From a virus: a stretch of 36,047 nucleotides of DNA. The stretch is from positions 1 to 36,047 of the IMG/VR virus record IMGVR_UViG_3300033233_000101, one strand, 5' to 3'. The position numbers and the translations under genes were made by a program. This document shows positions 4,174-23,839 of the stretch, one piece after another. The notes beneath the pieces were generated by a model. It was not told the DNA's origin and ran no database searches. It was given only the letters and a program-made list of their open reading frames with translations. Every line of letters begins with the position of its first letter. Position 1 is the stretch's first letter.

Positions 4174-5616
4174 CTATATAACATTATTATCTTCAATATT
4201 CCCTTTTTCATCAAATAGTTCTATATTACTATTTAAAGCCTCTTTTACACACCAAAGCTGGACTGGCTTGCCATTTCTTCTAACAGCTCTTTTCTTAAAC
4301 CCTAATGCGCTTAGCGCTTTACCAACATTTATAATAACACTGTTGTTATTGTTTACATTGTTATCTTTACTAAACTTTGATGCTATCTCAGTAGCATCCA
4401 GGTATTTTACAAGACTATGCCGCTCACGTATTTCATCTTCTGTAGGAACGGTATAAAGTCTATCAACAATCTCATATTCAAATGTACGCGCCTGAAACTT
4501 TTCATTTACTGCTTCAATCTTTTTAATATCTTCATTATCAAACCAATATTTTAAGCCATCTTTGTAATGTTGTAAACCTTGTGCATACATTTTACTCAAA
4601 TCAAAATTTTCATTAAGCTGAATATTTTCAATTTCAATTACTAACCAACGCCGGGATCCTGTTTCATCCCGCAGAAACGCCTTATTGTTTTGTGTTGCCG
4701 CAAATGATGCCCGCCTTTTTAAGTGCACATCTGCTTTTGCGTAAGGCAATCTTACAATAATCTGATCTCTTGATATAGCACTCTTTAATGATTCAATATC
4801 TGTTTTATTCAGAGCAGCCATTTCATCAAAGTTAATCAGCATCATATATGCTAAAAATTTCTCGTGATCTTTATTATGCACCTGGAAACTGCTGCCATAA
4901 AAATATTTTAATTGCAAATGTTGAGGTATAATACTCTTAAGAAAAGTAGTTTTGTATTTACCTTGCCCACCAACCAACACTAAACACGTTTGATTTATAT
5001 TATACATATTTGGTTCATCTTTAATTAAACCAACTACCATTGCAGTAAACCACTTACGAAAGCCCTCTACAAAATATTCACGGTTGTTTTCTTCATCCAC
5101 TAACTGCACCTGGCTACAAAAATCAAAGATATGGTCTCTTCCGCTTTTCACACCTTTAAACTTTTTATTTCCATCTTTCCCATCATATATAAACTCACTA
5201 TCACATTTACCAGCAGAATTAAAATAATCCATAAAGGGATTGAACTCTTTACTAATTTCCCGGCTAAAAATAATCGTCTTAAAATCCTCATCACTAATTG
5301 GAATATTATTCATTTTTAATTCTAATTTTATATCCCGATAATCACGATCATCAAAATAAGTCCATCTATTACTATCTTTAGGTTTATATTCAGTATCAGT
5401 ATTAATTACATTGTATCTGAAATCATATCGTTCATTGATGAAATTAACAATCTTCTCAATCTTAAATTTGATGTTCTTTGTTGGCTCAACATCAATACCA
5501 TATTCCTGCTTAATAGCTTCAACACCGATAGCAATCTTATCTTTTGTTGATAATTTCTTTTGCTTCTCTTCAGGAATCTTATCCAACATTTCTTTAAGTT
5601 TATTCGATTTTGCCAT
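4174..5616 (-). CDS. VapE/VirE-family P-loop replication helicase
   Basis: The 480-residue protein has the C-terminal P-loop core of the virulence-associated E family, which serves as replicative helicase partner of phage primases. Visible: Walker A-like VGGQGKYKTTF at about 215-225, where the usual second Gly before the Lys is Tyr; Walker B MLINFDEM at about 259-266; a sensor region with SAISRDQIIVRLPYAKAD; and the family arginine segment DETGSRRWLVIE at about 317-328. The N-terminal 190 residues are family-specific. The start codon overlaps the stop of the preceding ATPase gene as TAATG, so translation is coupled. It is the last gene of the early operon before the repeat array. Confidence 0.88.
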   Translation of the reverse strand: MAKSNKLKEMLDKIPEEKQKKLSTKDKIAIGVEAIKQEYGIDVEPTKNIKFKIEKIVNFINERYDFRYNVINTDTEYKPKDSNRWTYFDDRDYRDIKLELKMNNIPISDEDFKTIIFSREISKEFNPFMDYFNSAGKCDSEFIYDGKDGNKKFKGVKSGRDHIFDFCSQVQLVDEENNREYFVEGFRKWFTAMVVGLIKDEPNMYNINQTCLVLVGGQGKYKTTFLKSIIPQHLQLKYFYGSSFQVHNKDHEKFLAYMMLINFDEMAALNKTDIESLKSAISRDQIIVRLPYAKADVHLKRRASFAATQNNKAFLRDETGSRRWLVIEIENIQLNENFDLSKMYAQGLQHYKDGLKYWFDNEDIKKIEAVNEKFQARTFEYEIVDRLYTVPTEDEIRERHSLVKYLDATEIASKFSKDNNVNNNNSVIINVGKALSALGFKKRAVRRNGKPVQLWCVKEALNSNIELFDEKGNIEDNNVI

Positions 5617-7641: not shown

Positions 7642-8013
7642 TCATTTAAAATAATATTTAATTGCAACTGAACCATTAAAAATTTCAGGAATAAATGCCT
7701 CTGGATTAGTTGTGCCATAAGGAGGCGTTTCTTTAAATCTCTTAATCGTATTTGCTGTATATGATAGATCAAACAATAAAACAAAATTATTTTTAAGCGG
7801 TAAAGACGACCTTAAGAAAATAGTTGGTATGAATAAACGATCGTTGTAATCTTCTGGATTTGAAATTGGCAAACCTCTAAAAGTAATATGATAATCGTGA
7901 ACATAAGAAGTTGCCTGCAATCCAAAGGTTAAGGATGGATAAGTATCATCCTGAGCATTTAATGTTAATGCAAATAATAATGATAGCAAAAGAGCCATAA
8001 ATAAATTTTTCAT
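7642..8013 (-). CDS. Exported small beta-rich protein with Sec signal peptide
   Basis: The best start is the ATG at 8013, not 8025, because GGAG sits correctly in front of it. The product is about 123 residues. MKNLFMALLLSLLFALTLNA is a textbook Sec signal peptide with cleavage before Gln (ANA-type site, LNA|QDD). The mature part alternates hydrophobic and polar residues with aromatic ends (SYVHDYHITF, SVAIKYYFK) and ends in Lys after Phe, suggesting a small outer-membrane-barrel-like or periplasmic beta protein. It lies in the early operon, far from the tail genes. Possible roles such as surface change or superinfection exclusion are inference. Confidence 0.65.
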   Translation of the reverse strand: MKNLFMALLLSLLFALTLNAQDDTYPSLTFGLQATSYVHDYHITFRGLPISNPEDYNDRLFIPTIFLRSSLPLKNNFVLLFDLSYTANTIKRFKETPPYGTTNPEAFIPEIFNGSVAIKYYFK

Positions 8014-8014
8014 T

Positions 8015-8152
8015 TTATTCTCCATAAAATTGTTTAACTTTTTTTTCTAATTTTATACGATGCTGGAATTCAGTCCAGTAGCCCGCCCAACCGAGCCCAG
8101 CCAAAGCAATTAAGATAACACCCGCTAAACCCTGAAGTAAATCTGTGTGCAT
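8015..8152 (-). CDS. 45-residue single-span membrane protein
   Basis: A strong AAGGAG site precedes the ATG at 8152. The protein MHTDLLQGLAGVILIALAGL and onward has one transmembrane helix (about 8-26) followed by a basic tail (HRIKLEKKVK). Its last codons overlap the ribosome site and false upstream start of the exported-protein gene, so the two are translated in tandem. It resembles small phage membrane proteins of unknown role. Confidence 0.65.
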   Translation of the reverse strand: MHTDLLQGLAGVILIALAGLGWAGYWTEFQHRIKLEKKVKQFYGE

Positions 8153-10136: not shown

Positions 10137-10538
10137 ATGGATGCAACACAATTAAAACTTGATCAGTTAGTCAATTTATTACTAAATAAAACCGGTCTTA
10201 CGATGGGCGAGCTGGCAAATGTTATTGGAGTTTCCCGGCAGACCTTATCAAATTGGCGCAGTGGGAGGATTGATAATTTGGATCCAAGAACTCAAAAGAA
10301 GATTGATAAAGCGTTTGAAAAGAACCAAAATTGGGGAATAAAATTAGGCAGCATATCTCATTCACATATCGAAATTATCAACACATCTGATGAGGCAACC
10401 TCAAATATAAAATCTAAACTTCCTACCGATAAAGAATTGCAAGATGATGTAATTAAATACCAAATAAATTATATCAAAAATCTGGAAAATCAAATCATAT
10501 ATTTGAAAGAACAATTAAATAAATATGGAAAGAAGTAA
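10137..10538 (+). CDS. Phage repressor, Cro/CI-type helix-turn-helix
   Basis: The 133-residue protein has a helix-turn-helix at about 18-60 (TMGELANVIGVSRQTLSNWR), very close to the HTH_3/XRE pattern. The C-terminal third (about 95-133) is a predicted coiled coil (NLENQIIYLKEQLNKYGKK) for oligomerisation. There is no LexA-like peptidase part, so induction would not go through self-cleavage. The start is only 12 bases after the distal operator and has no clear ribosome site; the message may be leaderless. It begins the rightward lysogeny operon with a membrane protein and the integrase. Confidence 0.85.
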   Translation: MDATQLKLDQLVNLLLNKTGLTMGELANVIGVSRQTLSNWRSGRIDNLDPRTQKKIDKAFEKNQNWGIKLGSISHSHIEIINTSDEATSNIKSKLPTDKELQDDVIKYQINYIKNLENQIIYLKEQLNKYGKK

Positions 10539-10543
10539 AATTT

Positions 10544-10723
10544 ATGTCGATAATAACTTTAATCTTATCTATAATATTTTTATTATTGGGTGGATTCATC
10601 CTTTTTCTGTCAATGATATCCAATAATTTTAATGTTTTGCACTCAGTAGGTTTAATATTGATATCATTGGTATTTTCAATTTATACAATAATAATTGATA
10701 CGGAAAAAAAATCCAAAAGTTAG
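10544..10723 (+). CDS. 59-residue two-span membrane protein in lysogeny operon
   Basis: ATG at 10544 opens MSIITLILSIIFLLLGGFIL, a membrane helix, followed by a polar turn (SNNFN), a second helix (VGLILISLVFSIYTIIIID-like) and a basic end. It starts six bases after the repressor and its stop abuts the integrase start codon (TAGATG). Being in the operon active in the lysogen, it is a candidate superinfection-exclusion protein; this is inference. Confidence 0.65.
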   Translation: MSIITLILSIIFLLLGGFILFLSMISNNFNVLHSVGLILISLVFSIYTIIIDTEKKSKS

Positions 10724-11776
10724 ATGAAACTTCTTTCCATTAATGGACATCTTTATTTATCATACTGGAATAAAAGTAAAGGATATACCTGTAAAGAATC
10801 ACTGCACTTAAAAGATACCCAATTAAACCGCCGTATAGCTCAAAAAATTATTGCAGAAAAAAAACTAATCTATGCAGATGGCTATGTAGAAGTATCCGTA
10901 AATTATATTAAACTTTCCAAAGCCCTGCAGGAATTTCTTGAATACAAAAATCCAAAAACAAAAACCGCCATCACCTATAAATTAGCAGTCAATCATTTAA
11001 TCACAGTTGCAGGTGATAAATTTATTCAGGATTACACTCATAAAGATTATGTAATGCTGCTTAAATATTTCCGTACACCAAAAAAAATTATTGTTGATAC
11101 ACGCAGTAAAAAAGATGAAAAGAAAACTATCACAAAAGCACTTTCACAAAATAGTCAGGCAATTTATACGCGTACATTAAAATCATTGTTCAATTATTTT
11201 TTGAAGCATAAATACATTCAGGAAAATATAATTGAAGCAGTGCCAACCGCCGAAGCAAAGCCAACTCCAATTGATGAAGATGATTTGATTAAGATAATGC
11301 AAGTGCTTAAAAAATACCCGCACCAATATGCGCTTACTTATTTTTTAGTTAATACGGGAATAAGAAAATCCACCGCCCTGGATTTACAATGGCAGGATAT
11401 TGATTGGGAAAATAAATTTATAAAATTTCGGAATATAAAAGTTAAAGGTAAGGAATATACATTTCCCTTAATTCCAAGATTGCAGGAAATACTAAAAACA
11501 CTAACGATAAAAAAGACAGGCAAAGTATTTCCATATAAAAATGATTACGGATTAATATTTTTTAAGCGAGCTCAGAAAAATTTAGAATTGAAAAATCATT
11601 ATAGCATACACAAATTAAAGCATACATTTGTAAGTCAGCTTGTTAATGCGGGAATGAGTTTAGAGGATGTATCAGAACTAACCAATACATCATTAAGGAC
11701 CTTAAAAAAGAATTACCTTAAGATGGATAAAAATCGAATTGCAGAAAAATTACAGAGCATAAAAATTACCTCGTAA
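10724..11776 (+). CDS. int: Tyrosine recombinase (integrase) with altered catalytic residues
   Basis: The 350-residue protein has an arm-binding N-terminus, a SAM-like core-binding domain (about 60-165) and a catalytic domain (about 180-340). Catalytic Arg is in TGIRKSTALDL (R214), the beta-hairpin Lys in NIKVKGKEYTF (241-243), the His in SIHKLKHTF (H296) and the nucleophile Tyr in KKNYLKM (Y331). Two usual residues differ: the Arg of HxxR is Lys (K299), and the LGH His/Trp is missing (LTNTS, 319-323). The gene lies next to the attachment site and is followed by arm-type repeats, so it should act there. Whether the changes reduce activity cannot be told. Confidence 0.9.
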   Translation: MKLLSINGHLYLSYWNKSKGYTCKESLHLKDTQLNRRIAQKIIAEKKLIYADGYVEVSVNYIKLSKALQEFLEYKNPKTKTAITYKLAVNHLITVAGDKFIQDYTHKDYVMLLKYFRTPKKIIVDTRSKKDEKKTITKALSQNSQAIYTRTLKSLFNYFLKHKYIQENIIEAVPTAEAKPTPIDEDDLIKIMQVLKKYPHQYALTYFLVNTGIRKSTALDLQWQDIDWENKFIKFRNIKVKGKEYTFPLIPRLQEILKTLTIKKTGKVFPYKNDYGLIFFKRAQKNLELKNHYSIHKLKHTFVSQLVNAGMSLEDVSELTNTSLRTLKKNYLKMDKNRIAEKLQSIKITS

Positions 11777-12301: not shown

Positions 12302-13327
12302 TTATACATAATATTTTCTTGCACGGTAATATTGCTTATCAAAAAATCCAAGCCACTCTGTTTTAAATCTGTTTATCGCACCATCTTTACTTTGCTGGAA
12401 TTCAACTATCCAGCCGCCAACGTGTGCCTCGATTCTTTTCTTACGCATAAATCTTGTTTGATCACAGCCGCAGCCGCCCTGCACAGCTCTAACGTTTCGA
12501 TATGATGGCAGCACTTCTGCTTTGTGATAATGCCCGATTAAAAGTATGTGAGGTTTATCTCCACCTTGCAAACTTTCTATTAACTTTTGAGGTTGGTATG
12601 ATAGCGCATAAGCAGTTCCACCGCCGGCGTGCACGACTCTTAATATTGCATTGCCACGCCTTGCCTGCAAAGTAATATCAGCTTCCATATAACCAAGATA
12701 TTTAAGATCATTCCTGCCAGCCGCCTTAGCTTTCATTTCAAGATATTCGCCGATTATAACTCCCTCACGTTGCTGATACCATCCTTCGTGATCATCACCT
12801 GCAATAAAATTTATTGTGATGTTTTTTCTTTGCGGATAATTTTTAATAAAGTAATCAATCTGATTTGTCATACCAAAAGTATGAATATCAAGTTTATTAA
12901 AAGAAGCTTCGCCATCTATCCAGTTGCCGCCGTTATAAACCTGAGTAATGCCTTCCTGTTCATATATATCAAAGATTGCATTTAACACATCCAGCCGCTC
13001 CGCTTTATTGCATAAATGATCATCTGTAATAAATCCAAATTTGTAAGTTTTATTTTCAAACTCTTTCAAATCAATTTTATGAGTTCCGCCTGTTTTAACT
13101 TCCGAGCTAAGATGCGCCTCGCCATCTTTTATATTAACATTAAATTTTTGCGCGGTTAATTCATCCAGGATTGCCTCAATTATTGCAGGCGATCTTTTGT
13201 ATTTATTTGCAAGCGAAATGAGACTAACCGGTTTTTTAATATCCTTTTTTATGGATTCGATAAGCTTAAATCTTTCATTAAGATCCTTATCGGTTTTCCC
13301 ATCAATTTTAAATTCAATTTTGCTCAT
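12302..13327 (-). CDS. Calcineurin-like metallophosphoesterase with N-terminal winged helix
   Basis: The 341-residue protein has two parts. Residues about 15-75 (SLISLANKYKRSPAIIEAIL) look like a winged helix-turn-helix. From about 95 on all metallophosphoesterase motifs follow in order: TDDHL (D-x-H), NGGNWIDG in place of GDxxD, AGDDHEG (GN-H-E type), VVHAGGG, and GHYHKAEV. These residues form a two-metal site that hydrolyses phosphodiester or phosphomonoester bonds; the substrate is not evident. The start overlaps the stop of the upstream gene by four bases (ATGA). A nuclease or nucleotide-processing role late in infection is plausible. Confidence 0.85.
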   Translation of the reverse strand: MSKIEFKIDGKTDKDLNERFKLIESIKKDIKKPVSLISLANKYKRSPAIIEAILDELTAQKFNVNIKDGEAHLSSEVKTGGTHKIDLKEFENKTYKFGFITDDHLCNKAERLDVLNAIFDIYEQEGITQVYNGGNWIDGEASFNKLDIHTFGMTNQIDYFIKNYPQRKNITINFIAGDDHEGWYQQREGVIIGEYLEMKAKAAGRNDLKYLGYMEADITLQARRGNAILRVVHAGGGTAYALSYQPQKLIESLQGGDKPHILLIGHYHKAEVLPSYRNVRAVQGGCGCDQTRFMRKKRIEAHVGGWIVEFQQSKDGAINRFKTEWLGFFDKQYYRARKYYV

Positions 13328-13578
13328 ATCTGTTCCTGGAATGCTTTTATGGTTTTAAGATTTCCAAAATATATTTTATTTTTTAAATCCAAATAATAGC
13401 CCGGCAATTTGGATTTTATAAATGTCCGCATATGCCCTGAAGTTAAATTAAGTTTTTCCGCTAATCCATTGGAGGATAATAATTCACCATCGGGAAGTTT
13501 ATCTAAAAACTTTTTAATTTTTACAACATCATATCCGATGGTTGGTTTTATCTTTTTTCCATCAACTTTAAATTTCAT
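13324..13578 (-). CDS. Small winged-helix-like protein
   Basis: 84 residues. GELLSSNGLAEKLNLTSGHM followed by RTFIKSKLPGYYL resembles a helix-turn-helix with a short wing. The ends are basic and the gene is coupled to the phosphoesterase gene, whose own N-terminus looks similar (see findings). A DNA-binding partner role is likely; target unknown. Confidence 0.6.
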   Translation of the reverse strand: MKFKVDGKKIKPTIGYDVVKIKKFLDKLPDGELLSSNGLAEKLNLTSGHMRTFIKSKLPGYYLDLKNKIYFGNLKTIKAFQEQI

Positions 13579-13586
13579 ATAATTAC

Positions 13587-14120
13587 CTATTTTTGTGTTT
13601 GAAAATATTTTAATAAGTCCTTATCGTAATTGTTTTGAGCAAAGCCCTTGCCGTTATATTGCATTGCTATGGATTGAAAGTTTTGCTTTTGCAGTGCATC
13701 TAAAAATTTACCATCATTATATCTTACACAAAATAAACAGAAATCTCTTATCTGAATTTCTTCACTATCCTGCCAGGCCTCAATCATATCATCTATAATT
13801 TCATAATTAAGTAAAGGATATTGCCAGCCCATTATTTGAGCAATGCCCCAGCTCGTGCTTATCATTACAATTTCATCAACATTATGGACTCTTATCCAGC
13901 TTGCTTTAAGTCCGGGTAATTGCGGATGTCTTTGTTTGATATTTAATAAAACATCTCTAAATCCGGTTAAGATTGATTTTTCTAATCTCTTTTTAAGATT
14001 GCCTTTATCATCATATCCCTGCTGATTAGATTCCTTCATCAAAATAGCAGCAAGAATTCGCCAATCAAGATGATACTGATCCGCAAATTCTTTTAATATT
14101 TCTTTTGATTTTTCTTGCAT
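13587..14120 (-). CDS. Endolysin, N-acetylmuramidase family
   Basis: The 177-residue protein matches the phage N-acetylmuramidase (DUF3380) pattern: LAAILMKESN with the catalytic Glu at about 30, the TSWGIAQIMGW signature at about 89-99 and the terminal YNGKGFAQNNYDKDLLKYF. It cleaves peptidoglycan between MurNAc and GlcNAc. There is no signal peptide, so it needs a holin for access to the wall, and three candidate holin-like proteins lie upstream. No separate cell-wall binding domain is seen. Call is firm. Confidence 0.88.
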   Translation of the reverse strand: MQEKSKEILKEFADQYHLDWRILAAILMKESNQQGYDDKGNLKKRLEKSILTGFRDVLLNIKQRHPQLPGLKASWIRVHNVDEIVMISTSWGIAQIMGWQYPLLNYEIIDDMIEAWQDSEEIQIRDFCLFCVRYNDGKFLDALQKQNFQSIAMQYNGKGFAQNNYDKDLLKYFQTQK

Positions 14121-14147
14121 AATTGTTCCGTAAACATTTATGATTTT

Positions 14148-15095
14148 TTATATTGCTAATTTTAATTGTGTTAATTCTTTTTCAATTCTTTTTTGTGCTA
14201 TCTCGCAGTATTCCTGATTCCCGTCAATTCCTATTCCTTGCCTGCCTAATTGTATTGCTCTAACTAAAGTAGTTCCCGTTCCACAAAATGGATCTAAGAT
14301 AATTCCGCCTTCAGGGCATCCTGCAATTATTGGTTTATCTATTAGCTTAAAATTATAAGTTGCATAATGTTTTTCTGATGATGGCTGTGTTGGAATATCC
14401 CAAAAGTCTGAAACATCACCTGGATTTTTGCCATTAGGATTTGGTGGAATAAATGTATTTGTTTTATTAGTCTCATCTTCTTTACTTGAATTATATACTA
14501 TCCTTTTATCTCGTTTTTCGTTTGTAATGATTTTTTCTCTCACTCCATCCAAATCAAAATAATACTTTTGTTGTTTTACGAAGAAGAAAAAGAACTCGTG
14601 CTTTTTAGAAAATCTATCGGTAACGCTTTCGGGCATTCCGTTTCTTTTAGCCCAAATAATATCATTGCGTAAAATCAAACCAAGTTCATCAATACATCTT
14701 ATTGCAAATCTATGAGGGATGAGCATTAAGGATTTTTGTTGTATTCTGTCATCACTTTTATAAATCATACCTATTTTATCCCTACCAAACCCTTGTCTTC
14801 CAGCCGCAGAATAACTTGAATTATTCATATAACTATCACCAAGATTTATCCACATCGTTCCCGTTGGTTTTAATACTCTTTTAAGTTCACTCATCAAGGC
14901 AATTAACTTGTCAAGAAATTCCTGATAAGTTTTTTCTAATCCCCATTGTCCATCCCAGCCATAATCTCTTAATTGATAGTAAGGCGGTGAAGTAATAACG
15001 CAATCAATACTTTCATCAGGAATATTCTTGATGATCTCAAGACTATCACCGTGCAAAATACAATCTATGTTTTCTGGAATGTTCATATTGTTCAT
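14148..15095 (-). CDS. Orphan DNA methyltransferase (beta-class layout)
   Basis: 315 residues. The catalytic motif TSPPYYQLRDYG lies at about 35-46 and the S-adenosylmethionine motif DPFCGTGTTLVRA at about 268-280, so the order is catalytic-before-SAM (beta class). SPPY is most often found in N4-cytosine enzymes but also in some N6-adenine enzymes, so the base is open. No restriction gene is near. Such solitary phage methylases protect DNA from host restriction or alter gene control. The start is uncertain: ATG at 15095 or 15086, both with weak ribosome sites. Confidence 0.85.
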   Translation of the reverse strand: MNNMNIPENIDCILHGDSLEIIKNIPDESIDCVITSPPYYQLRDYGWDGQWGLEKTYQEFLDKLIALMSELKRVLKPTGTMWINLGDSYMNNSSYSAAGRQGFGRDKIGMIYKSDDRIQQKSLMLIPHRFAIRCIDELGLILRNDIIWAKRNGMPESVTDRFSKKHEFFFFFVKQQKYYFDLDGVREKIITNEKRDKRIVYNSSKEDETNKTNTFIPPNPNGKNPGDVSDFWDIPTQPSSEKHYATYNFKLIDKPIIAGCPEGGIILDPFCGTGTTLVRAIQLGRQGIGIDGNQEYCEIAQKRIEKELTQLKLAI

Positions 15096-15111
15096 TGTTA
15101 ATTTTTAATTG

Positions 15112-15606
15112 TTAATTGATCCTAACTCCTATTCCTAATTGAATGCCTACATCGGCTGTTTTACCGTTATAATTTATTCCAACTCCCAAATAAGGGATGA
15201 ATCTCTTATACCAGAATCCAACCTCTTCTGTCTGGACAATCGTGTTCGTTATTGTCTTTTCCCTTAATCCGAACTTCATATTAAAGTAACTCCGCTTGTC
15301 TAATGGAATCGGACTAACGAATTGCACGTGTGCAGTAAGAGATGAATCCTCATAAGTTGTATCGTGTTCAGCCACATAATTGGTTTCATTATGCACAAAA
15401 ACAGTGTCTCTAAATCTCAAAGTATCTTTTTTAATAATCGTCTTAAACTTTGGAATTATTAAGGTATCGGTTTTATCAATGTAGCGATATTCAATTAAGG
15501 TATTCGGTTTAGTGTCTGGACATTCTTTATCGGGTTTCAAACTCCATCCAATAAATCCGCCAATGATTAAACAGATTCCAAGTGCGATTAAATATGATTT
15601 ACTCAT
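15112..15606 (-). CDS. Spanin-like inner-membrane anchored protein
   Basis: 164 residues. One N-terminal transmembrane helix (about 5-22) is followed by an extended, Thr- and Asp-rich periplasmic part (about 30-110). The C-terminal part has beta-strand-like segments (YLGVGINYNGKTADVGIQLG) ending in Asn. It overlaps the holin-like gene by four bases and lies in the lysis block, so a spanin role between inner and outer membrane is reasonable. Other surface roles are possible; a family was not recognised. Confidence 0.55.
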   Translation of the reverse strand: MSKSYLIALGICLIIGGFIGWSLKPDKECPDTKPNTLIEYRYIDKTDTLIIPKFKTIIKKDTLRFRDTVFVHNETNYVAEHDTTYEDSSLTAHVQFVSPIPLDKRSYFNMKFGLREKTITNTIVQTEEVGFWYKRFIPYLGVGINYNGKTADVGIQLGIGVRIN

Positions 15607-15848
15607 TGCGGTTTGTTCTTATCTACAATGTTAGACCATACGCCTAATCCAATTATTGCGGCAATTGTAAAAGCCCAGTTAATTGGAATATCTTCAACTT
15701 TGTTATTAAATAAAGTCGTCTTTACGTAACTAAAAAGAAAAGCTAAGACAACCAAAAAGCCCATCAATCTTTTTGATGAACCTAATCCATTGTCTTCACT
15801 CAGGAAACTTTTTAGCCACTCGATTTGAGCTGCAACCCATTTAAACAT
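15603..15848 (-). CDS. Holin-like two-span membrane protein
   Basis: 81 residues. The polar start is followed by SSKRLMGFLVVLAFLFSYV, a first membrane helix preceded by the 'SSKR' seen in many phage holins of the two-span type, then a second helix (NWAFTIAAIIGLGVWSN) and a basic tail. The ribosome site AAAGGA lies at the end of the cationic peptide gene upstream. It would form the lesion that releases the muramidase. Predicted by topology and place only. Confidence 0.7.
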   Translation of the reverse strand: MFKWVAAQIEWLKSFLSEDNGLGSSKRLMGFLVVLAFLFSYVKTTLFNNKVEDIPINWAFTIAAIIGLGVWSNIVDKNKPQ

Positions 15849-15850
15849 AA

Positions 15851-15952
15851 CTATCCTTTCTTTAATGCGTTCTTAATTACCTTTATAATTAAACTCTTGG
15901 TTAATTTTAATCCCTGCCAAGCCAAGTTTGAAAGTTTTTTATTTATATCCAT
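15851..15952 (-). CDS. 33-residue cationic amphipathic peptide
   Basis: ATG at 15952 opens MDINKKLSNLAWQGLKLTKS and continues to a TAG at 15851, two bases before the holin-like gene. It has eight Lys and one Asp and alternates Leu/Ile with Lys in helical periodicity (LKLTKSLIIKVIKNALKKG), so it should form an amphipathic helix that binds membranes. Its ribosome site is weak, but its last codons carry the ribosome site of the holin gene, which supports a real translated frame. It may tune or help lysis. Confidence 0.5.
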   Translation of the reverse strand: MDINKKLSNLAWQGLKLTKSLIIKVIKNALKKG

Positions 15953-16223
15953 TTTGTTCTTTAATCTTTTTACTTTAATCTTTAATCTTCAATCGGTGAC
16001 AAATTGTCACCAACTCAACCCGTTCCAGTTGTCCTGAAAAACCGGACAACTCATTTATATCCGTTTTGTGAGTTCTCAGGTCACATTACCGCTATAACAA
16101 AATTTTATGAACAATAACGAAATCTTGGTTTCGTTTTTCTGCCAATTCAAAAGATTGGCAGTAATTTTACCGCTATAACGTTATATAGTTAGCGATAATA
16201 TTAACTTAATATATTTGACGATA
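15953..16223. other. Non-coding region with four stable stem-loops
   Basis: No gene seen. Perfect inverted repeats occur at 15995-16011 (GGTGACA/TGTCACC), 16027-16051 (AGTTGTCC/GGACAACT), 16118-16133 (CGAAA/TTTCG, followed on the plus strand by five T) and 16139-16161 (CTGCCAAT/ATTGGCAG). ACCGCTATAAC occurs twice, at 16088 and 16169, in direct orientation. On the late-transcript (minus) strand none of the hairpins has a following U-run, so they are unlikely to be simple terminators. Structured leader RNA, RNA processing or packaging signals are alternatives. Confidence 0.6.
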
Positions 16224-16562
16224 TTACTTGCTAACTTCTAAACTCTCCCATTTAACACCAGACTTTTCCATCAATCGTTTTAAATTATGAATTAGAACAT
16301 CTGTCTTCTTTGCATTATCTTGACTGACCTTTGTCCCGTTCTCTTCAATACTATTTACTTTTACTTGTAACAATTGCACTTCCTTCGCCTCTGCTTTATT
16401 TTGTATTTTCTCATCCACACTACCCTTCCATATTCCAAATATCATCACTTGTCCAAGTAAGAAGATTAGAACGGTTGCAATAGCACCCCACTGAATAGCT
16501 TTTCTATTCAAAATAACAGCTTCCCCGCTCTCTATGCGGTCTATTGTTTTTTTGTCAGTCAT
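16224..16562 (-). CDS. Membrane protein with coiled coil, XhlA/holin-like
   Basis: About 112 residues from the ATG at 16562 (GGAG at good spacing; an upstream in-frame ATG at 16586 is less likely). A polar N-terminus is followed by one transmembrane helix (about 22-45, WGAIATVLIFLLGQVMIFG), then a coiled coil (about 50-100). This layout recalls haemolysin XhlA or phage accessory holins. The start overlaps the stop of the preceding gene (ATGA). It may work with the three-span protein upstream. Lysis function is inferred. Confidence 0.6.
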   Translation of the reverse strand: MTDKKTIDRIESGEAVILNRKAIQWGAIATVLIFLLGQVMIFGIWKGSVDEKIQNKAEAKEVQLLQVKVNSIEENGTKVSQDNAKKTDVLIHNLKRLMEKSGVKWESLEVSK

Positions 16563-16900
16563 ATTATTCTCCAGACAATTATGCACAAACCAATGATGAA
16601 TAATATCACGGTTTGGTAGAATTTAAGAAAATCGTAATCACCTAAATGAGTTATGGGTAACTTACGATACAGATTTAATCCACTATTAAATAGGAATGGA
16701 AATTGTAATCCCATTCCAGCAATCAAAATCAAATAATTCCAATTCATTGTGTAAATAAATGGCAATAAGTAAACTGCTATTAAAAAAGTTCGTTGAGGTA
16801 TATGCCAATATTGGTCTCTGCCACTTACGTCTCTTATCAGTTTATACGAGTACCAAGTGAATAAGAAAAATGTTAAGTATATGTATGCTACTGTTATCAT
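16559..16900 (-). CDS. Multi-span membrane protein
   Basis: 113 residues with three to four hydrophobic helices (about 3-20, 38-52, 55-70, 93-112) linked by short basic loops. It begins two bases after the tailspike stop and overlaps the coiled-coil membrane gene, so it opens the lysis or accessory part of the late transcript. No family recognised; a holin-like or antiholin role is possible. Confidence 0.6.
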   Translation of the reverse strand: MITVAYIYLTFFLFTWYSYKLIRDVSGRDQYWHIPQRTFLIAVYLLPFIYTMNWNYLILIAGMGLQFPFLFNSGLNLYRKLPITHLGDYDFLKFYQTVILFIIGLCIIVWRII

Positions 16901-16902
16901 CG

Positions 16903-19557
16903 CTATGGTATAACTCCCTTCCCTAAACTATCCATATACCATTCAAATATATTTTTTAATGCTCTTTGTTCTGTCGCTGTAAATGAACCACCACTCCAAG
17001 CAATAGCGACCTGACCATTAAAATTTTGATAAGGATTATAATTTCCTGTATAATTGTTATTGCCGCATAATAAAGTGCGATATTGATTAATTGACAAAAT
17101 AGGGTTCGTAACTGAAGTTGTTTTAACTTTCGTTCCATTTATATAAAATTCTAAATTAGTTGCAGATGTTAAATTTGTAGAGAATAAGCCAACAGTGTCA
17201 GCCCCTGTGGATCTGCTATTAGAAACTCCATTAATGGAATAATAGGTAGTAGCCGTTGCTATTTCTAACCATATATCGGGTTTGCTATCTGTGCTAAGAT
17301 ATTTAGTAATATATATCCCCTGAGAAGCATTATTCCACCTTTGAACCGTAGAATCTACAAAGGGCAGTTCACCATTTCTAATGTAATTATTAGCAGTTCC
17401 CTTAGAATATCCTTCCCATTGTGTCCATAAAGGATAAGAGGTATTATTACCATATGACCAATCCAACAAATCAAACCTATTTTGTGCTAAATTTTTATTC
17501 CCAGCATCGTGTGTTTCATTAGCTATTAAATATAATGTCTTAAATCTTGTGTTAATATTGGTAGTGTGCAAAGAATCGTGTAACATTTGGAATACTGTTT
17601 TTAATCTTGTTCTTTGTGCCTCTGAGATAGGAGTAACTAATCGTCCAAAATATAAAGCAGTATCAGAGTCAAACGAATTAAATGTTGGTGTATAAGATGA
17701 AGGTAACAAATTATCATTAAGAGTTGCCAAATTACCTGCAACCATATTAGCAACAGCTTCTTCATAAGTTGGCTTAGTTGGTAAAGAAGTAGGAGGTGTT
17801 GTCATCCCTGCTCTTAAATCATATATCCTTTTAGCATAATAACTTGTTGGTCTTAATCTTAAATCACCGTGTTTATAATCATAAAAAATTGTGTTCAAGT
17901 CGGATGGTTGATAAATCCTAATAAAAATAGAATTTAAATCTTGCCCAGTACTTATTTGCCATCTTGAAAAATCAATTCTTCCTTCGGTTGGATTATATAT
18001 ATTGAACATAACACCATCCGTGTTAGTTGTAATGCCCTCTACACCTCTAACCCCTATAAATACATTGCTATCTGCAATAACATTTAAACTCGTTGGCGTG
18101 CTAAGTCCTCCTTTATTAGTTGAATAAGCACTCATTCCGAGTCCAGTATTTACAATTAAACAATTTTTAACTGTGGCTAACATATTATCATATGTGGTGG
18201 CATCTACAATAAAATCAAATATTTCAGAATTAGGACTATTCAACTTTTTTATTATCGTTGTATTGTAAACATTCCAATATTTTTGTTTATAATTGGAATA
18301 AAAAGACCCGCCATTATTACTATTGGTAGTGTCTAAACTTAAACAGTTTCTCAGTGTTACTGTTGCTGGAAGCTCAGTAGGACTATTATTATAATATAAG
18401 TATGCCCCATTATAAATTATAGAATTGCTACCACTATAAATTCTTGCATTGCCCCCTAATAATGAAGCACCATTTGCATAAACTTTGTCTGCTATAACTG
18501 AATCTACATCTCCTCCCCAAGACCCAATAGAGCCAAAATGTTGAACGTTATTAACAGTAAGTTTATTATGCCTTTTTGCATAGTCTCCAGAAGTGTGCAT
18601 AATCATTGGTGTAGCATCAAGAAAAATAGAATTTTTTACTAAGGTGTTTAATCCAGTTGCATCCTCTTTATAAAAAGCAAATTGTGATGATGTAGTAGCA
18701 GCTCCCAAAACCAATGATTCTTCTAAAATTCCACTATTAAATACCATACAATGGATTCCACCATTTTGGAATGCTACTCTTTTAACGTGGGTATTTAGAC
18801 CACCGCTTGCCATACCATATCCTGCCCCAGAAGAAAATAAATATAGATTTTCAAATGTAGTATTATAATAGGTAAAGCTTGACCCAGCAGAAGGATTAAT
18901 ACAATTATCTCTTGTGGTAACTTCATAAAAATATTCACCGTGATTGGGTGCTTGGTTATTAGTTGGATGTATATAAACAATCGAAGGGTTAGCAACCGTA
19001 TAAAAATAACTTCCAGCAGTAGCTTCGCAATTATCAACACTTGTTGCGAGTGTCATTGGCTTTTTGCTTGTATATGGTTTTAATGCAGTATCCGCTATTG
19101 TTACTTCTGTAACTAAAATATTATTATAATCTCTATTAACACTTAAAGAAGTTATACTATGGCTAACCGATTTTTCATAAGTATAGGTTTTACCAGAAGT
19201 CAAAGCCCATCCAGTTATAACATCAGTCCCATATATTTTAGCTAAACCATTAACCCCCTTAATCGTAAGATTATTAACAGTAGAAGTTAATTGCTCTCTC
19301 CATTTACCATAAGAAAGCAATCCTAACTTTGCAGAACCTTTTGCCGTTACTATTCCATTAAGCAAACTATTAGCTCCACTTAAAGTAAGTTTTGGTGTAC
19401 GAATTGTAAGTCCATCATAACTATCATTACCTAAGGTAGATGCGTAAACATCAAATTTTTCTGCGTCATCGCCACTCAAAAGCAAAATAAAATTTCTGCT
19501 CTGACCAAAAAGACTGAATGTTAATAATAAACTAATGATAAAATATTTTGATAACAT
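16903..19557 (-). CDS. Large beta-helix tailspike or fibre with Sec signal peptide
   Basis: 884 residues. A signal peptide of 18 residues (MLSKYFIISLLLTFSLFG) precedes Gln. From about 35 to 500 the protein has the repeated short strands and Asn/Gly turns of a right-handed parallel beta-helix (pectate-lyase-like), typical of tailspikes. The last 170 residues have a concanavalin/LamG-like pattern (DIWLEIATATTYYSINGV) that may bind surface glycans. The start has AGGAGAG at good spacing, so the signal peptide is really translated. Expected role is host binding; export is unusual for a virion protein. It is the last of the tail genes and overlaps the BppU-like gene by 23 bases. Confidence 0.75.
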   Translation of the reverse strand: MLSKYFIISLLLTFSLFGQSRNFILLLSGDDAEKFDVYASTLGNDSYDGLTIRTPKLTLSGANSLLNGIVTAKGSAKLGLLSYGKWREQLTSTVNNLTIKGVNGLAKIYGTDVITGWALTSGKTYTYEKSVSHSITSLSVNRDYNNILVTEVTIADTALKPYTSKKPMTLATSVDNCEATAGSYFYTVANPSIVYIHPTNNQAPNHGEYFYEVTTRDNCINPSAGSSFTYYNTTFENLYLFSSGAGYGMASGGLNTHVKRVAFQNGGIHCMVFNSGILEESLVLGAATTSSQFAFYKEDATGLNTLVKNSIFLDATPMIMHTSGDYAKRHNKLTVNNVQHFGSIGSWGGDVDSVIADKVYANGASLLGGNARIYSGSNSIIYNGAYLYYNNSPTELPATVTLRNCLSLDTTNSNNGGSFYSNYKQKYWNVYNTTIIKKLNSPNSEIFDFIVDATTYDNMLATVKNCLIVNTGLGMSAYSTNKGGLSTPTSLNVIADSNVFIGVRGVEGITTNTDGVMFNIYNPTEGRIDFSRWQISTGQDLNSIFIRIYQPSDLNTIFYDYKHGDLRLRPTSYYAKRIYDLRAGMTTPPTSLPTKPTYEEAVANMVAGNLATLNDNLLPSSYTPTFNSFDSDTALYFGRLVTPISEAQRTRLKTVFQMLHDSLHTTNINTRFKTLYLIANETHDAGNKNLAQNRFDLLDWSYGNNTSYPLWTQWEGYSKGTANNYIRNGELPFVDSTVQRWNNASQGIYITKYLSTDSKPDIWLEIATATTYYSINGVSNSRSTGADTVGLFSTNLTSATNLEFYINGTKVKTTSVTNPILSINQYRTLLCGNNNYTGNYNPYQNFNGQVAIAWSGGSFTATEQRALKNIFEWYMDSLGKGVIP

Positions 19558-20407
19558 AATACTCTCCTATAATTCCACTTGGATTGATATATATCCTTAA
19601 ATAATTGTTTTTGGGGATTACACCCCCGCCAATAATACTGTTATAAGAAGGATTGACTGCCGAAACTGTTTGTACGGTTGGATAAATAGCAGTACCTCCT
19701 GAAGCAATATAATTTCCATAAAATAAATTCATAGTAAAAGATGAATCATAAGTTGTCCCTTGTATCGAATCAATGATTATATCTTTGAACAAAAAATCAA
19801 AAGTAATATCTTCTATTTGCTTTGGTCTTACGATACTTAAAACATAAGGAGGATTTTGTGTTCTCAAACTATCCCTTATCATCGCACTAATACTATCCTT
19901 CTGTGCCTGAGGTAAAATACTGCCAGTTGGACTCCATCTGTGATTTATTGCATCCCACGTAACCATTTCATCTTGTTTAGTTCCATTATCTAAGCTAACG
20001 GTTGTAACCCGTGTACCGCCTGAGGGTAAATTTGTGCCATCAAACGCTGTCTGGACAGGTGATAATATATTTAATTTGCCCTGTTTAATTGTTATGGTAT
20101 CAGCGCCATAAGCTACAATATCATAAGGATAGCTTGCATTTGTTGTTAAGTCCTGAGTATCGCTAACATTAAGAGTGCATACCATTGTTGTGTAAGGCGT
20201 TGCATAGCTTTTACTAAGTGTTTTCTGGATTACTCTTTCGTTATTAGAATTTTTAGCCACAAACAAAAGCGTGTAAGATGTATAATTGCCCGGTGCTTTA
20301 AGCTCTAATACCTTTGTTCTTCCCGCAGTTACATAAATATCGTTCTGTGCAAAAGAAATTGCGGCAAATAACAACACAACAGAAATTGATAAAATTAGTT
20401 TTTTCAT
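19532..20407 (-). CDS. BppU-like baseplate or fibre protein with signal peptide
   Basis: About 291 residues. MKKLILSISVVLLFAAISFA is a clear signal peptide, cut before Gln. The mature N-terminus (VTAGRTKVLEL, then LLFVAKNSNNERVIQKTL) follows the pattern of the phage BppU-like N-terminal domain that attaches fibres to the tail. The middle carries a GTKQDEMVTWDAINHRW segment common in phage fibres, then a predicted beta-rich tip. It lies between the Ig-like protein and the tailspike on one transcript. The start at 20407 is preferred over the GTG just before it. Confidence 0.65.
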   Translation of the reverse strand: MKKLILSISVVLLFAAISFAQNDIYVTAGRTKVLELKAPGNYTSYTLLFVAKNSNNERVIQKTLSKSYATPYTTMVCTLNVSDTQDLTTNASYPYDIVAYGADTITIKQGKLNILSPVQTAFDGTNLPSGGTRVTTVSLDNGTKQDEMVTWDAINHRWSPTGSILPQAQKDSISAMIRDSLRTQNPPYVLSIVRPKQIEDITFDFLFKDIIIDSIQGTTYDSSFTMNLFYGNYIASGGTAIYPTVQTVSAVNPSYNSIIGGGVIPKNNYLRIYINPSGIIGEYYVIKIFYH

Positions 20408-20422
20408 CACATATTACCCTAA

Positions 20423-20830
20423 TTATTTTTTCATTTGAACAATCGGAATAGAAATTTTATTTGGAGCAAAACCATTAAAGAAAAACCACGCTGTGTTTTT
20501 TGAGGAAATTTCATTTCCGGCTTTGTCTTTAACTTTAAAAGCCCTCACCATAAAGTTCATTCTATAAGGCAATCTTTTTGTAATCAAAGCAACTTTACTT
20601 GTATCATTTATTAAAACGCCATCAACTGCTTTTACAATTCCAACCTTATAAATAGGATAAGTCTTATTCTGTTCATCAGTTATAGAATAATTTGATGCAG
20701 TTAAAAGTCCTTCGATATTCATTGGCTCACTAAAACTTAAAACGATTGTTGATGTAGTATCCTGCGCAAAAGAAACAAACGCTAAAATGATAATAAACCA
20801 AATGATTAAAATTGCTTCACCAAATTTCAT
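20423..20830 (-). CDS. Exported Ig-like domain protein
   Basis: 135 residues. The hydrophobic N-terminus (about 5-22, ending SFA|QDT) is a signal peptide. The rest (TIVLSFSEPMNIEGLLTASN, NYSITDEQNK) has the pattern of SbsA-type bacterial Ig-like domains that occur on surface layers and phage tips. The ATG overlaps the stop of the upstream gene (TAAATG) and follows AAGGAAAAAG. It probably decorates the tail tip or the cell surface; the choice is unresolved. Confidence 0.6.
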   Translation of the reverse strand: MKFGEAILIIWFIIILAFVSFAQDTTSTIVLSFSEPMNIEGLLTASNYSITDEQNKTYPIYKVGIVKAVDGVLINDTSKVALITKRLPYRMNFMVRAFKVKDKAGNEISSKNTAWFFFNGFAPNKISIPIVQMKK

Positions 20831-21214
20831 TTACTTTTTCCTTAACCCAACTCCACCAGGTGTTGAAGGTATTGTTCCAACATTACCAACTGCGACACCC
20901 ATTCCTGAATAATACCCTACAGAATTTTCTGCTACTATTCCAACAGTATATTCAAAACCGTCATTACTTAAATTGATTGTGAAAACAGGCGTTGTTGCTT
21001 CGCCAACTTTTAATGTTGTAACATCCGGGCTTAAATAATCCATTCCCTGTATAAGCTTATATGCAGAAGCACTTTTCTTTTCCAGAAAGAAATGATATTT
21101 TACAGCACCGGTTACGGGATTAGAATAAATTTCATAATTACTTTTAGGCTGTCCGTTGCATTTTACAACGAACAATAAAAGTATAATTGATACGAGCAAT
21201 AGGATTCTTTTCAT
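20831..21214 (-). CDS. Exported FN3-like protein
   Basis: 127 residues. MKRILLLVSIILLLFVVK and CNG precede a Gln (CNG|QPKS). The Cys is not in a standard lipobox (Lys at -1), so a Sec I site is more likely than a lipoprotein site, but both are possible. The mature part (YEIYSNPVTGAVKYHFFLEK, GFEYTVGIVAENSVGYYSG) looks like one fibronectin type III fold and ends Gly/Pro-rich. It is coupled to both neighbours (TAATG at 21214). Confidence 0.6.
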   Translation of the reverse strand: MKRILLLVSIILLLFVVKCNGQPKSNYEIYSNPVTGAVKYHFFLEKKSASAYKLIQGMDYLSPDVTTLKVGEATTPVFTINLSNDGFEYTVGIVAENSVGYYSGMGVAVGNVGTIPSTPGGVGLRKK

Positions 21215-21516
21215 TATGCGACCTCTTTCATTTTTTTTAATTCTTTTCTTCTTTGTTGGATTTGTTTTTTATGACTTTGATAATATTTTCTATTTCTCTG
21301 TCTGATTTTATCCTGTCTTAATTCCATCTCTATTGTATATTTGCTTTTAGTTATAATATTTGTCTCAGCATTTGATAGCTCATTTAACTTAATACTTTTT
21401 TCGTAAACTGCTTTTGCAATTCCTAAAGCGTGATAAAGAGCTTCATCCAATGGTTTTTCAATAAGATCAGCGTAAACTTTCAATCTAACATTTATATGTT
21501 CAGATAGCTTACTCAT
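21214..21516 (-). CDS. Basic helical protein between exported tail-tip genes
   Basis: 100 residues, strongly helical and Lys/Arg-rich in the second half (RQRNRKYYQSHKKQIQQRRK), with no signal peptide. The basic segment resembles zipper-like or nucleic-acid-binding repeats found in phage HNH-associated proteins, but no catalytic motif is present. It sits in one base-overlap with the next gene. Function not known. Confidence 0.55.
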   Translation of the reverse strand: MSKLSEHINVRLKVYADLIEKPLDEALYHALGIAKAVYEKSIKLNELSNAETNIITKSKYTIEMELRQDKIRQRNRKYYQSHKKQIQQRRKELKKMKEVA

Positions 21517-21517
21517 C

Positions 21518-21934
21518 TTAAAATTTAGTTCTCACAATTGTTAAAGTTCTTTGTGCGGCTTCTGTTCCGTTGCTTATAATTTTTATATATCTTAAAAGCT
21601 GATTAACTTTTGATGGCGGAATACCGCATAGCTTATTTAATGCTACAGTAACGGATAAATCAGATCCATCATATTGCACGACTTTAAAATTTGCAGAAGT
21701 TGTATCTGCACTTGTGGATATTGTTACGCTGGTTCCTGTAAATGCAGATGGAAAAACGATTGCGGCAAGCTTCCAATCTTTTAGATCAATTCGTGCAGAG
21801 GTAGATGATCCGCTTGCAATTGTTATGGTTTGCTGCAAATTAAATTGTGCATTAGCAGTTAATGTAAAGGCAAAAGTAAAAAGGAATAAAAATCCCAATA
21901 CTTTTATCTTTGCACTTTTTTCTTTTATCTTCAT
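21518..21934 (-). CDS. Exported virion-type beta-sandwich protein
   Basis: 138 residues. Positions 8-29 form a signal peptide (GFLFLFTFAFTLTANA|QF). The mature part follows a pattern widespread in phage tail and head decoration proteins: 'I-SG-STSA-IDL', 'LAAIVFPSAFTGTSVTISTS' and a terminal 'YIKIISNGTEAAQRTLTIV'. Those relatives normally have no signal peptide. AAGGAG stands eight bases before the ATG, so this start is correct. It lies immediately after the tail hub gene. Confidence 0.7.
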   Translation of the reverse strand: MKIKEKSAKIKVLGFLFLFTFAFTLTANAQFNLQQTITIASGSSTSARIDLKDWKLAAIVFPSAFTGTSVTISTSADTTSANFKVVQYDGSDLSVTVALNKLCGIPPSKVNQLLRYIKIISNGTEAAQRTLTIVRTKF

Positions 21935-21952: not shown

Positions 21953-23839
21953 TTAATCATAACTAATTACTTTTTCGGAGGTATATTTTATTTTACCGCC
22001 TTCACTAATTTCTTTTTTAATAACCTGAAATTGCTTTTCAACAAAATTATTACCTGTTATTTCATTAAAATCATCAGTAGTAACTTTATGGAAATCACCG
22101 AGGTTAAGAGCTTCATCTTTAATTTCAAGTTCAAAAGAAAATTTATTTTTTGCATCTTTTAATGAATTGATAAGCTTTGTTGTTAAGCTGGTTATATAGG
22201 TAGAATAACCGGTAATGGTAAAATTAGATGGATAATATTGAGCAAAAGAATTAAAGAAACGGCTGTAAATTGTCTTTATTTCCTGAGTTCCATATTCTAT
22301 AACAGCATCGCTATTTTCAGTAATTGCAAGATTGTTAAAAGAATCCGATTTTTTAATATCCTTTAACGAACTAACATCACCTTGATAAACCGCATCGCCT
22401 GAAGAATGAGCTGCCGCAGTTGATCCACGATTACCGCGTGTGCATCCTGCTAATTGATTAAGAGATGTATTTAGTGAATTATAAAGGATGAATTCAGAGC
22501 CAATTAAAACTTCGCCCTGCGCAGGTAAATCAGCAACGCTTGTAACACCAATTGTAGTAACAGAGCTATCAATATTGGCGCTTAAAGCACGCTTTGCCGT
22601 ATGGATTTTAAGATTATAATAAAAATAAATTGTTGTATATCTGGTAGATTCACCCCAATCAATTGAGGTAGAATTTTTTAAAATATTTTCATTATCATTA
22701 ATAGAAATTTGCGTAGTGATATAAGTTGGTAAAACTGACCAGGTAGAATAAAAAATATTTCTTCTAATATTTACATAACCACTTTCATCCAGCCAAACTT
22801 TACATCCAAGCTGATCCACCAATTCCCAAAATAAATCTGATCTTTTAGTATCAGATAGAATAAGAGCAATACAACCCGGTTCACCGCTATAATAATAATT
22901 ACCTATAATTTCAGCAAACATTGAGTTTATATAAGGAACACCTGCCTCGGTAAGCAATGTTTTCATAATTCCGAATGGATTATCATAATATGCTATTACA
23001 AGACTTAATTGCGCACCCCTTTGGTGTGAAGTTGCCAATGTGCCAAAATAACCGCGTGTAACAGAAACAAGAGTGGTACCGCTTAAACTTCCAAAATGAA
23101 TAATTTCATTATCAATTAAAATATTACCTGAAGAAGGGAAATCGGAAGCTGAAGTAATACTAATGCCTGTTGTTTGTGTGTTGGTAATATCAACAGCTAA
23201 TTGACCTATTAATTTTGTTGATATGTTTGAAGAATCCAAAAACTTAAAATTATCAATACAATCAATTTTAACCACGCCATTACTAAATTGGATATTATCA
23301 ATTTTGCCGGCAAATCTTAAAATAAATTCGCTTTCTAAATTACCTTCAAAACCTTCATAAATCCTTAAAGGACGATATTTAAAATTAGGATTACGTGCAA
23401 ACAATCTTTTGAAATAACTTCCAGGAATTTCAGTCGAAGTATAACCACGCAAGCTCCAATAAGGATCATTATCAATATCGCTTTCTTTATAATCATCATA
23501 AAGTTCAACAGTAATTCTGTTCTTTATCGTGATATTATCTTTAATTTCTTGTGGAAGTAATTGATAAGATTTTAAATAAGGGCGGCATCCATAAAAAGGC
23601 GGAGTTGTGCCTGCGGTTGTGAATTTATAAATTTTGGTAATTTTATCAAAATTTGCTTTTGGTAAAAAAGTCCAGGGATCTTCATCAACACAGGTTCGAT
23701 AAGTATTATAACAGTGATCCGATCCGGCGCTTGGATGACAAGGCGCAATTCCATAAGTATTATTACAATAATCTAATTCGATTTCAATCTTTGTTATCTT
23801 TTTACGATTTATTTTACCCAGCTCGCTTGCGTAACTCAT
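21953..23839 (-). CDS. Tail tip/hub protein with Cys cluster
   Basis: 628 residues. The N-terminal 100 residues are rich in Cys: C25, C34, C43, C50 and C85. The regular C25-C50 spacing recalls the iron-sulphur site of lambda gpL tail-tip proteins. A beta-rich domain follows (FAGKIDNIQFSNGVVKIDC). Two copies of a small domain with 'TRG-GT-A--H--GA-V' lie at about 210-280 and 405-475, and a hub-like C-terminal part contains YINIRRNIF-type strands. It follows the distal tail protein with a four-base overlap. Position and motifs support a hub that starts the tail fibre network. Confidence 0.75.
   Translation of the reverse strand: MSYASELGKINRKKITKIEIELDYCNNTYGIAPCHPSAGSDHCYNTYRTCVDEDPWTFLPKANFDKITKIYKFTTAGTTPPFYGCRPYLKSYQLLPQEIKDNITIKNRITVELYDDYKESDIDNDPYWSLRGYTSTEIPGSYFKRLFARNPNFKYRPLRIYEGFEGNLESEFILRFAGKIDNIQFSNGVVKIDCIDNFKFLDSSNISTKLIGQLAVDITNTQTTGISITSASDFPSSGNILIDNEIIHFGSLSGTTLVSVTRGYFGTLATSHQRGAQLSLVIAYYDNPFGIMKTLLTEAGVPYINSMFAEIIGNYYYSGEPGCIALILSDTKRSDLFWELVDQLGCKVWLDESGYVNIRRNIFYSTWSVLPTYITTQISINDNENILKNSTSIDWGESTRYTTIYFYYNLKIHTAKRALSANIDSSVTTIGVTSVADLPAQGEVLIGSEFILYNSLNTSLNQLAGCTRGNRGSTAAAHSSGDAVYQGDVSSLKDIKKSDSFNNLAITENSDAVIEYGTQEIKTIYSRFFNSFAQYYPSNFTITGYSTYITSLTTKLINSLKDAKNKFSFELEIKDEALNLGDFHKVTTDDFNEITGNNFVEKQFQVIKKEISEGGKIKYTSEKVISYD

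Follow-up and report, generated by a model that had tools for sequence, protein, structure and literature searches.

In some tailed phages, the receptor-binding proteins (RBPs) are probably exported from the cytoplasm before they join the particle. Assembly of tailed phages is, in the textbook view, cytoplasmic until lysis. This work concerns a run of tail genes in a 36 kb virus record of IMG/VR (IMGVR_UViG_3300033233_000101, positions 1 to 36,047, hereafter the window), of which the products carry Sec signal peptides (SPs) followed by glutamine (Gln) at the first mature position (+1). Support comes from the SPs, from the Gln rule, from the conservation of both in relatives, from the annotated detection of SP-bearing proteins by tandem mass spectrometry (MS/MS) in other phages, and from a glycosylation sequon signature in the mature parts. 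If receptor-binding parts do pass through the periplasm, then assembly order, fiber stability, post-translational modification and host range would have to be rethought, and fibers produced in the Escherichia coli cytoplasm would lack their natural N-terminus and possibly their natural glycans. Virion mass spectrometry (MS) data already in existence could test the export idea at once.

Signal peptides at the tail tip of the window

The terminase and portal of the window are of lambda type, and its protease and capsid are encoded by a single fused gene; tail genes, an integrase-like gene and a region of lysis type are also present. Its late genes are all read from the minus strand. A first-pass annotation had listed seven open reading frames (ORFs) with Sec SPs cut before Gln. 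All seven are present on the minus strand, and Gln follows a usable signal-peptidase-I site in each. SPs were called by rule throughout, not by SignalP score. The strict rule (a basic n-region, an uncharged hydrophobic 8-mer and small residues at -3 and -1) selects five of the seven proteins; the other two, 20423 and 20831 (genes are named by their lowest coordinate), are weaker, with net charge 0 before the core in the former and Lys at -4 and Cys at -3 in the latter. No second hydrophobic segment was found in the mature parts of the seven proteins (highest 19-residue Kyte-Doolittle mean 1.35). A signal-peptidase-I site followed by Gln is the Q-rule of Bacteroidetes secretomes (PMC5837995, PMC10653852). 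Hosts with a high Q-value belong to Bacteroidota or Ignavibacteria: the published mean is 71% for Bacteroidetes, with up to 77% in Ignavibacterium album.

Six of the SP proteins are of virion type; five of them are tail-tip products, and the gene of the sixth lies immediately upstream of that for the portal. The tail hub or 'tail fiber adhesion' protein (21953-23839, minus strand; phrog_11439, E = 3e-48) has no SP and served as the anchor gene for finding relatives. It is followed on the same strand by a small beta protein of 138 amino acids (aa) (21518-21934; site ANA/QFN, the slash marking the predicted cleavage), a charged protein of 100 aa (21214-21516), a beta-rich protein of 127 aa (20831-21214; weaker site CNG/QPK, no family match), a putative Ig-like protein of 135 aa (20423-20830; weak n-region, SFA/QDT), an upper-baseplate-like fiber protein of 292 aa (19532-20410; SP MKKLILSISVVLLFAAISFA followed by QND, site SFA/QND) and a putative tailspike of 884 aa (16903-19557; SP MLSKYFIISLLLTFSLFG followed by QSR, site LFG/QSR). 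The start codon of 19532 is GTG with ATG as the next codon, from which its SP is counted. The tailspike, the final gene ahead of the lysis and membrane genes, begins with the SP, continues with an anchor-like segment and ends in a large C-terminal part; it has no Pfam or PHROG domain. The sixth protein is a small beta protein of 146 aa (33240-33680, minus strand; SFA/QTT).

Several earlier descriptions hold in part. The run of SP genes comprises five genes but is interrupted by 21214-21516, which lacks an SP. Five of the seven starts follow a clear ribosome site (AGGAG, GAGG or AAGGA); no such site stands at 7642, and that of 19532 is weak. The label 'Ig-like' for 20423 depends on a Big_5 match at E = 2e-4, just under the cut-off, and 'BppU-like' for 19532 is backed by homologues and synteny but not by a Pfam match. 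Almost no SP protein of the window itself was recognized in the Pfam/PHROGs scan.

The concentration of these signals at the tail tip is marked. Of the six genes that separate the tail hub from the lysis genes, five encode an SP, against two of 44 elsewhere in the window (Fisher p = 6e-5). Among 156 N-terminally hydrophobic phage proteins from control loci with a usable site, 15% had any Gln-compatible site, and seven of seven against this generous null, in which any allowed site counts, gives p ~ 2e-6. An artifact, whether chance N-termini, wrongly chosen starts or host sequence joined to the record during assembly, might be suspected from the single GTG start and from the one SP without net positive charge; we regard it as highly improbable, given these two p-values and the recurrence of the pattern in independent assemblies and cultured isolates.

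Signal peptides in relatives and in cultured phages

No close relatives of the window were present in the collections searched. Queries of IMG/VR with single window proteins (hub, terminase, tape measure) gave no match, and relatives were found only with profiles of the tail hub. A tblastn comparison of 50,697 phage records with the tailspike, 19532 and 33240 gave no match, and sequence searches of the PDB gave none. The scan of genome collections matched only Proteobacteria-type genomes and so gave no host for the window, and a third hub-profile scan added essentially no new members to the SP-bearing clade.

In five distant IMG/VR relatives, all 19 genes in the slot between hub and lysis genes start with an SP (five in L026/G002, two each in L031/G003, L034 and L043, and eight in L109). 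Gln occupies +1 in 17 of them, both exceptions belonging to L109; the 17 include gene 10224 of L026, in which Pro at -1 makes an unlikely signal-peptidase site. Across downstream genes, Gln-SP genes make up 15 of 52 in the clade of the window versus 13 of 904 in other loci (p = 3e-13), a value that describes the contrast and is not a discovery statistic, since the clade was itself picked out by its SPs. G002 and G003, too, have a small SP gene immediately upstream of the portal. The first-pass annotation had named relatives without signals at the corresponding genes as a refuting observation. When this was checked, the SPs proved to be retained in the closest relatives, and in more distant phages without the Q-rule SPs of the clade ordinary fibers occupy the slot. 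Proteobacterial relatives with the same gene order likewise have slot fibers without SP.

The run occupies the stretch from tail hub to lysis genes in which fibers are encoded in relatives. The tailspike SP and first mature segment resemble those of L109 16048 (40% over 45 aa, E = 0.006), while the remainder differs. The 19532 protein matches the SP-bearing L109 13760 (41% over 130 aa, E = 3e-20) and also the SP-less L106 14153, a large LamG-bearing fiber (26% over 119 aa, E = 1.5e-5). This fiber lacks exactly the SP, its first residues aligning to the mature start of 19532. The SP-bearing spike L034 11471 has 278 aa in common with the same fiber, and L031 12209 (SP, TFA/Q) contains a BppL_N element above the Pfam cut-off. 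Of recognized fiber or baseplate domains, the comparison thus offers BppL_N in this relative and, for 19532, homology to the LamG-bearing fiber; the window proteins themselves gave no Pfam match. The comparisons with L106, L034 and L031 link the SP proteins to virion attachment modules. The mature part of 21518 is 36% identical to the SP-bearing L026 2581 (E = 1e-8), which is located elsewhere in the tail operon, and 33240 has an SP-bearing homologue in L106 (28%, E = 9e-6), with Ala-Gln invariant across the alignment.

Some relatives depart from this arrangement. L106 is a mixed case within the clade, with an SP-bearing head-region protein (4318-4803, TTG start, LVA/Q) and large SP-less fibers (12583-16666). 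The Rhizobiales-type loci L006 (6194-6637, AFA/Q) and L037 (1328-1765, ANA/Q) encode a single SP protein of ~145 aa between the major tail protein and the tail chaperone, the place of L026 2581, and L033 and L039 have similar upstream SP calls. SP-bearing genes of the virion region may therefore not be limited to Bacteroidota phages.

Virion evidence was collected for phages of Cellulophaga baltica, where it consists of the GenBank note 'experimental MS/MS proteomics analysis' on individual proteins; we saw this label and not the underlying MS data. It is attached to 14 SP-bearing proteins, annotated as tail fibers or pectate lyases: gp101-104 of phi19:1, gp91-94 of phi10:1, gp85-87 of phi18:3, gp25-26 of phi39:1 and gp08 of phiSM. 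Gln stands at +1 in 13 of the 14, phi19:1 gp104 having Lys. If cleaved and cyclized, phi10:1 gp94 would have the mature N-terminus pyroGlu-TVEGTVGSDGSLIPYNVSGGLDETAVDTK. No SP is present on the head and tail-tube proteins that bear the same label, nor on the capsid, portal and tape-measure proteins of these phages. The MS/MS-marked gp104 of phi19:1 (L169 3314-4654) is unlike every other SP fiber, with the site SFG/KDY and 11 cysteines.

The proteins could be exported without being virion parts, as free periplasmic or released binders, or as depolymerases that clear capsule or debris near lysis or block re-adsorption; detection in Cellulophaga virions would then reflect co-purification. The export signals are genuine, several SP proteins have lectin, beta-helix or carbohydrate-binding domains, and the authors who described Q-rule genes in Porphyromonas gingivalis phages took them as surface modifiers (PMC10367356). 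We nevertheless consider free secretion unlikely, as the Cellulophaga SP proteins fill the fiber or spike slot and are nearly all listed as virion-detected, phi10:1 and phi18:3 would be left without a recognized fiber if they were discounted, BppL_N and BppU-like modules are virion attachment parts, and no outer-membrane secretion domain was found.

The trait is unevenly distributed. Recognized fibers have no SP in phi38:1, phi14:2, phi18:1 and phiST, which infect the same host species, nor in the Bacteroidota phages 11b, 6H, RAP44, B124-14, P12024L, FCL-2 and Hankyphage. As fiber SPs are present or absent among phages of one host species, the trait tracks phage lineage and not host. The SP and the first mature residues (the anchor) form a cassette exchanged among Assiduviridae, Pachyviridae and Duneviridae, and the 20 SP codons of the pectate-lyase cassette differ between phages by up to six silent changes and zero amino-acid changes. 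By this sequence evidence, the signal is a maintained, transferable part. Flavobacterium phage 6H, without SP fibers, encodes a DUF4468 protein with an SP near its tape measure gene (gp05, L178 8153-8707; MFS/QES).

The depolymerase domain of phi39:1 gp26 occurs also in phiST gp30 (L254 3522-7268) and phiSM gp09 (L253 4155-7439) at 66-87% identity. In phiST it is fused to a fiber N-terminus that lacks an SP, and in phiSM to one that carries it; the recorded host of both phages is C. baltica MM#3. Two general reasons for export were rejected. The need of the periplasm for folding does not agree with the homologous domain of phiST, which has no SP, and disulfide formation is not reflected in cysteine content (0.42 per 100 residues in SP proteins vs 0.43 in non-SP virion proteins).

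Sequons in the mature proteins and the proposed assembly route

Bacteroidetes O-glycosylate exported proteins in the periplasm at the sequon D[ST][AILVMT]; most periplasm-facing proteins bear glycans, whereas abundant surface proteins avoid the sites (PMC8729774). In the SP proteins of the window's clade this sequon is about threefold enriched (100 vs 35 expected, z = 11.9), and under a dipeptide-preserving null the excess persists (57 expected, z = 7.4), all 100 contexts being distinct. In the window there are 15 sequons against 6 expected (z = 4.0, or 2.1 with the dipeptide-preserving null). Virion proteins of these phages that lack an SP show no deviation (37 vs 38.5 expected). In the Cellulophaga SP proteins the sequon is avoided about threefold (12 vs 37 expected), which was replicated in 14 further SP proteins of this group (15 vs 45 expected; below expectation in 13 of 14), some of which share sequence with the first set, while the four of Ingeline are nearly unrelated to it. 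Reversed and substituted control motifs were flat in the three SP sets, and two control sets showed a mild excess of D[GNQ]x. Enrichment, although predicted beforehand, gained no replicate in the clade of the window, which yielded too few new members; only the Cellulophaga avoidance was replicated. Judged from these sequence counts, exposure to periplasmic glycosylation could produce both enrichment and avoidance, whereas cytoplasmic assembly predicts neither. Fibers may be glycoproteins in some lineages and may have evolved to avoid glycosylation in others.

We propose that the tail-tip fibers, spikes and accessory proteins would be made as precursors and exported via the host Sec pathway. 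Removal of the SP by signal peptidase I would expose an N-terminal Gln, which the host would cyclize to pyroglutamate, and the mature proteins would be held in the periplasm, facing the host O-glycosylation system. Once the holin opens the inner membrane, cytoplasmic particles would meet the mature fibers, and joining would most likely occur then, from the periplasmic side, with the conserved N-terminal segment of the mature fibers as the likely anchor to the tail. Within this scheme we infer export and cleavage during infection, the time of joining and the role of the anchor. That exported fibers, trimmed to N-terminal (pyro)Gln, join the virion from the periplasmic side is the explanation we favor with reasonable, though not high, confidence. 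Slightly less firmly, leaning only just to the positive side, we suggest that a class of Bacteroidota-type tailed phages builds its virion in two compartments, with heads and tails made in the cytoplasm and Sec-exported, pyroglutamate-trimmed, O-glycosylation-exposed fibers and spikes added periplasmically at lysis.

Three readings had been offered at the outset. Post-export assembly is favored because, in cultured phages, records mark SP-bearing fibers and spikes as virion proteins detected by MS/MS, and free secretion keeps a minor share for the proteins of the window. Surface display has been weakened, because the SP proteins show no T9SS (type IX secretion system) domain, clear lipobox or second anchor and are encoded in a late operon beside the lysis genes. 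Specifically, no T9SS C-terminal domain was matched in Pfam/NCBIfam, and +1 is Gln and not the Cys of a lipobox. Lysogenic conversion, by which the proteins would decorate the lysogen surface, finds some footing in the integrase-like and repressor-like genes on the plus strand (10137-11776). We consider it very unlikely in view of the minus-strand late operon and of several Cellulophaga phages with the trait, which were isolated as plaque-forming phages.

The signals could also be seldom used, with folding and assembly proceeding in the cytoplasm while Sec is saturated late in infection, or with the N-terminal helix acting at the tail tip as a structural element or in contact with the membrane. 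The SP-less phiST protein, whose depolymerase domain shares 66% identity with its phi39:1 counterpart, speaks for this idea, since a working virion part can then be made without export. Gln at +1 is nearly universal, SP codons are under purifying selection, and mature parts deviate in their sequon counts; all this is sensible only if the proteins meet signal peptidase and the periplasm, and we consider seldom-used signals improbable, more so than free secretion.

Several points weigh against periplasmic joining. Virion detection is known from a note in GenBank, and proteins that are merely secreted could be carried along when virions are purified. Virion membership of the window proteins is argued by analogy with the Cellulophaga proteins, which they would be expected to resemble in behavior. 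The fibers of 11b, B124-14, RAP44, phi14:2, phi18:1 and phiST have no SP, and with many Bacteroidota phages lacking fiber SPs, export is not required for such proteins. The sequon analysis was exploratory, treats related proteins that are non-independent observations, and deviates in opposite directions in the two groups, so that separate explanations are needed.

Accompanying genes and known systems

The seventh SP protein (7642-8025, minus strand; 127 aa, site LNA/QDD, no family match) had been grouped with the tail proteins, and this assignment holds for the other six. It was set apart because it is encoded in the early region and because its C-terminus (...SVAIKYYFK), judged by eye, resembles that of a small outer-membrane barrel; it is probably not a tail part, and is a candidate for a role in superinfection exclusion or at the surface. 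The region 15112-16900 (minus strand), which follows immediately downstream of the SP run, contains membrane or lysis-type genes for N-terminally anchored and small transmembrane proteins. Three of these genes were tested and gave no confident family match; from their position the genes of this region may encode holin and spanin functions. A near-identical leader, AAGGAGTAC(G), precedes 33240-33680 and 21518-21934 of the window, L026 15645 and an SP gene upstream of the portal in L160. It may be no more than a strong ribosome site, or it may be a start cassette that moves between phages. AlphaFold models built from three to four sequences were too poor for use (mean pLDDT, the model confidence score, 48 for the 19532 family and 33 for the 33240 family), and their Foldseek matches, with TM-scores < 0.3 by query length, were set aside.

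The closest parallel is found in the Cellulophaga modules of the Assiduviridae phi10:1, phi19:1 and Nekkels, the Pachyviridae phi18:3, phi46:3 and phi13:2, the Duneviridae Ingeline, and phi39:1 and phiSM. As in the window, consecutive genes, here for fibers, spikes and pectate lyases, precede the lysis genes, and each product starts with a Sec SP that is followed in almost all cases by Gln. No similarity in sequence could be detected between these products and the window's SP proteins, and sequons are avoided instead of enriched. In the Cellulophaga phage records examined, the depositors make no mention of signal peptides. Marinomonas phage P12026, Idiomarinaceae phage 1N2-2 and Oceanospirillum phage GJ44 share a related hub and the order tape-measure protein, Dit-like protein, hub, fiber and lysis genes, but their slot fibers and spikes have ordinary cytoplasmic N-termini. 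Filamentous phage coat proteins are virion proteins that are Sec-exported and have their signal peptide cleaved, and these virions are extruded through the membrane without lysis. By contrast, the window represents a tailed, lysis-type phage, in which, as predicted from the genes, only the outermost tail parts would be exported.

Bacteroidetes Q-rule substrates have the same site followed by Gln, which the host would make into pyroglutamate, but are host proteins of bacterial secretomes (PMC5837995, PMC10653852). Prophages of P. gingivalis (proposed Nixviridae) do encode proteins with SignalP-predicted SPs followed by Gln, of reported unknown function, read as outer-membrane modifiers and unlinked to virion tail proteins (PMC10367356). 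The first-pass claim that no such system had been described is thus nearly right: Q-rule SPs were noted in these prophages, but no report of them on virion tail proteins was found in open-access full text, subscription journals lying outside the search. Compared with these systems, the kinds of protein are themselves known, and the new part is the route.

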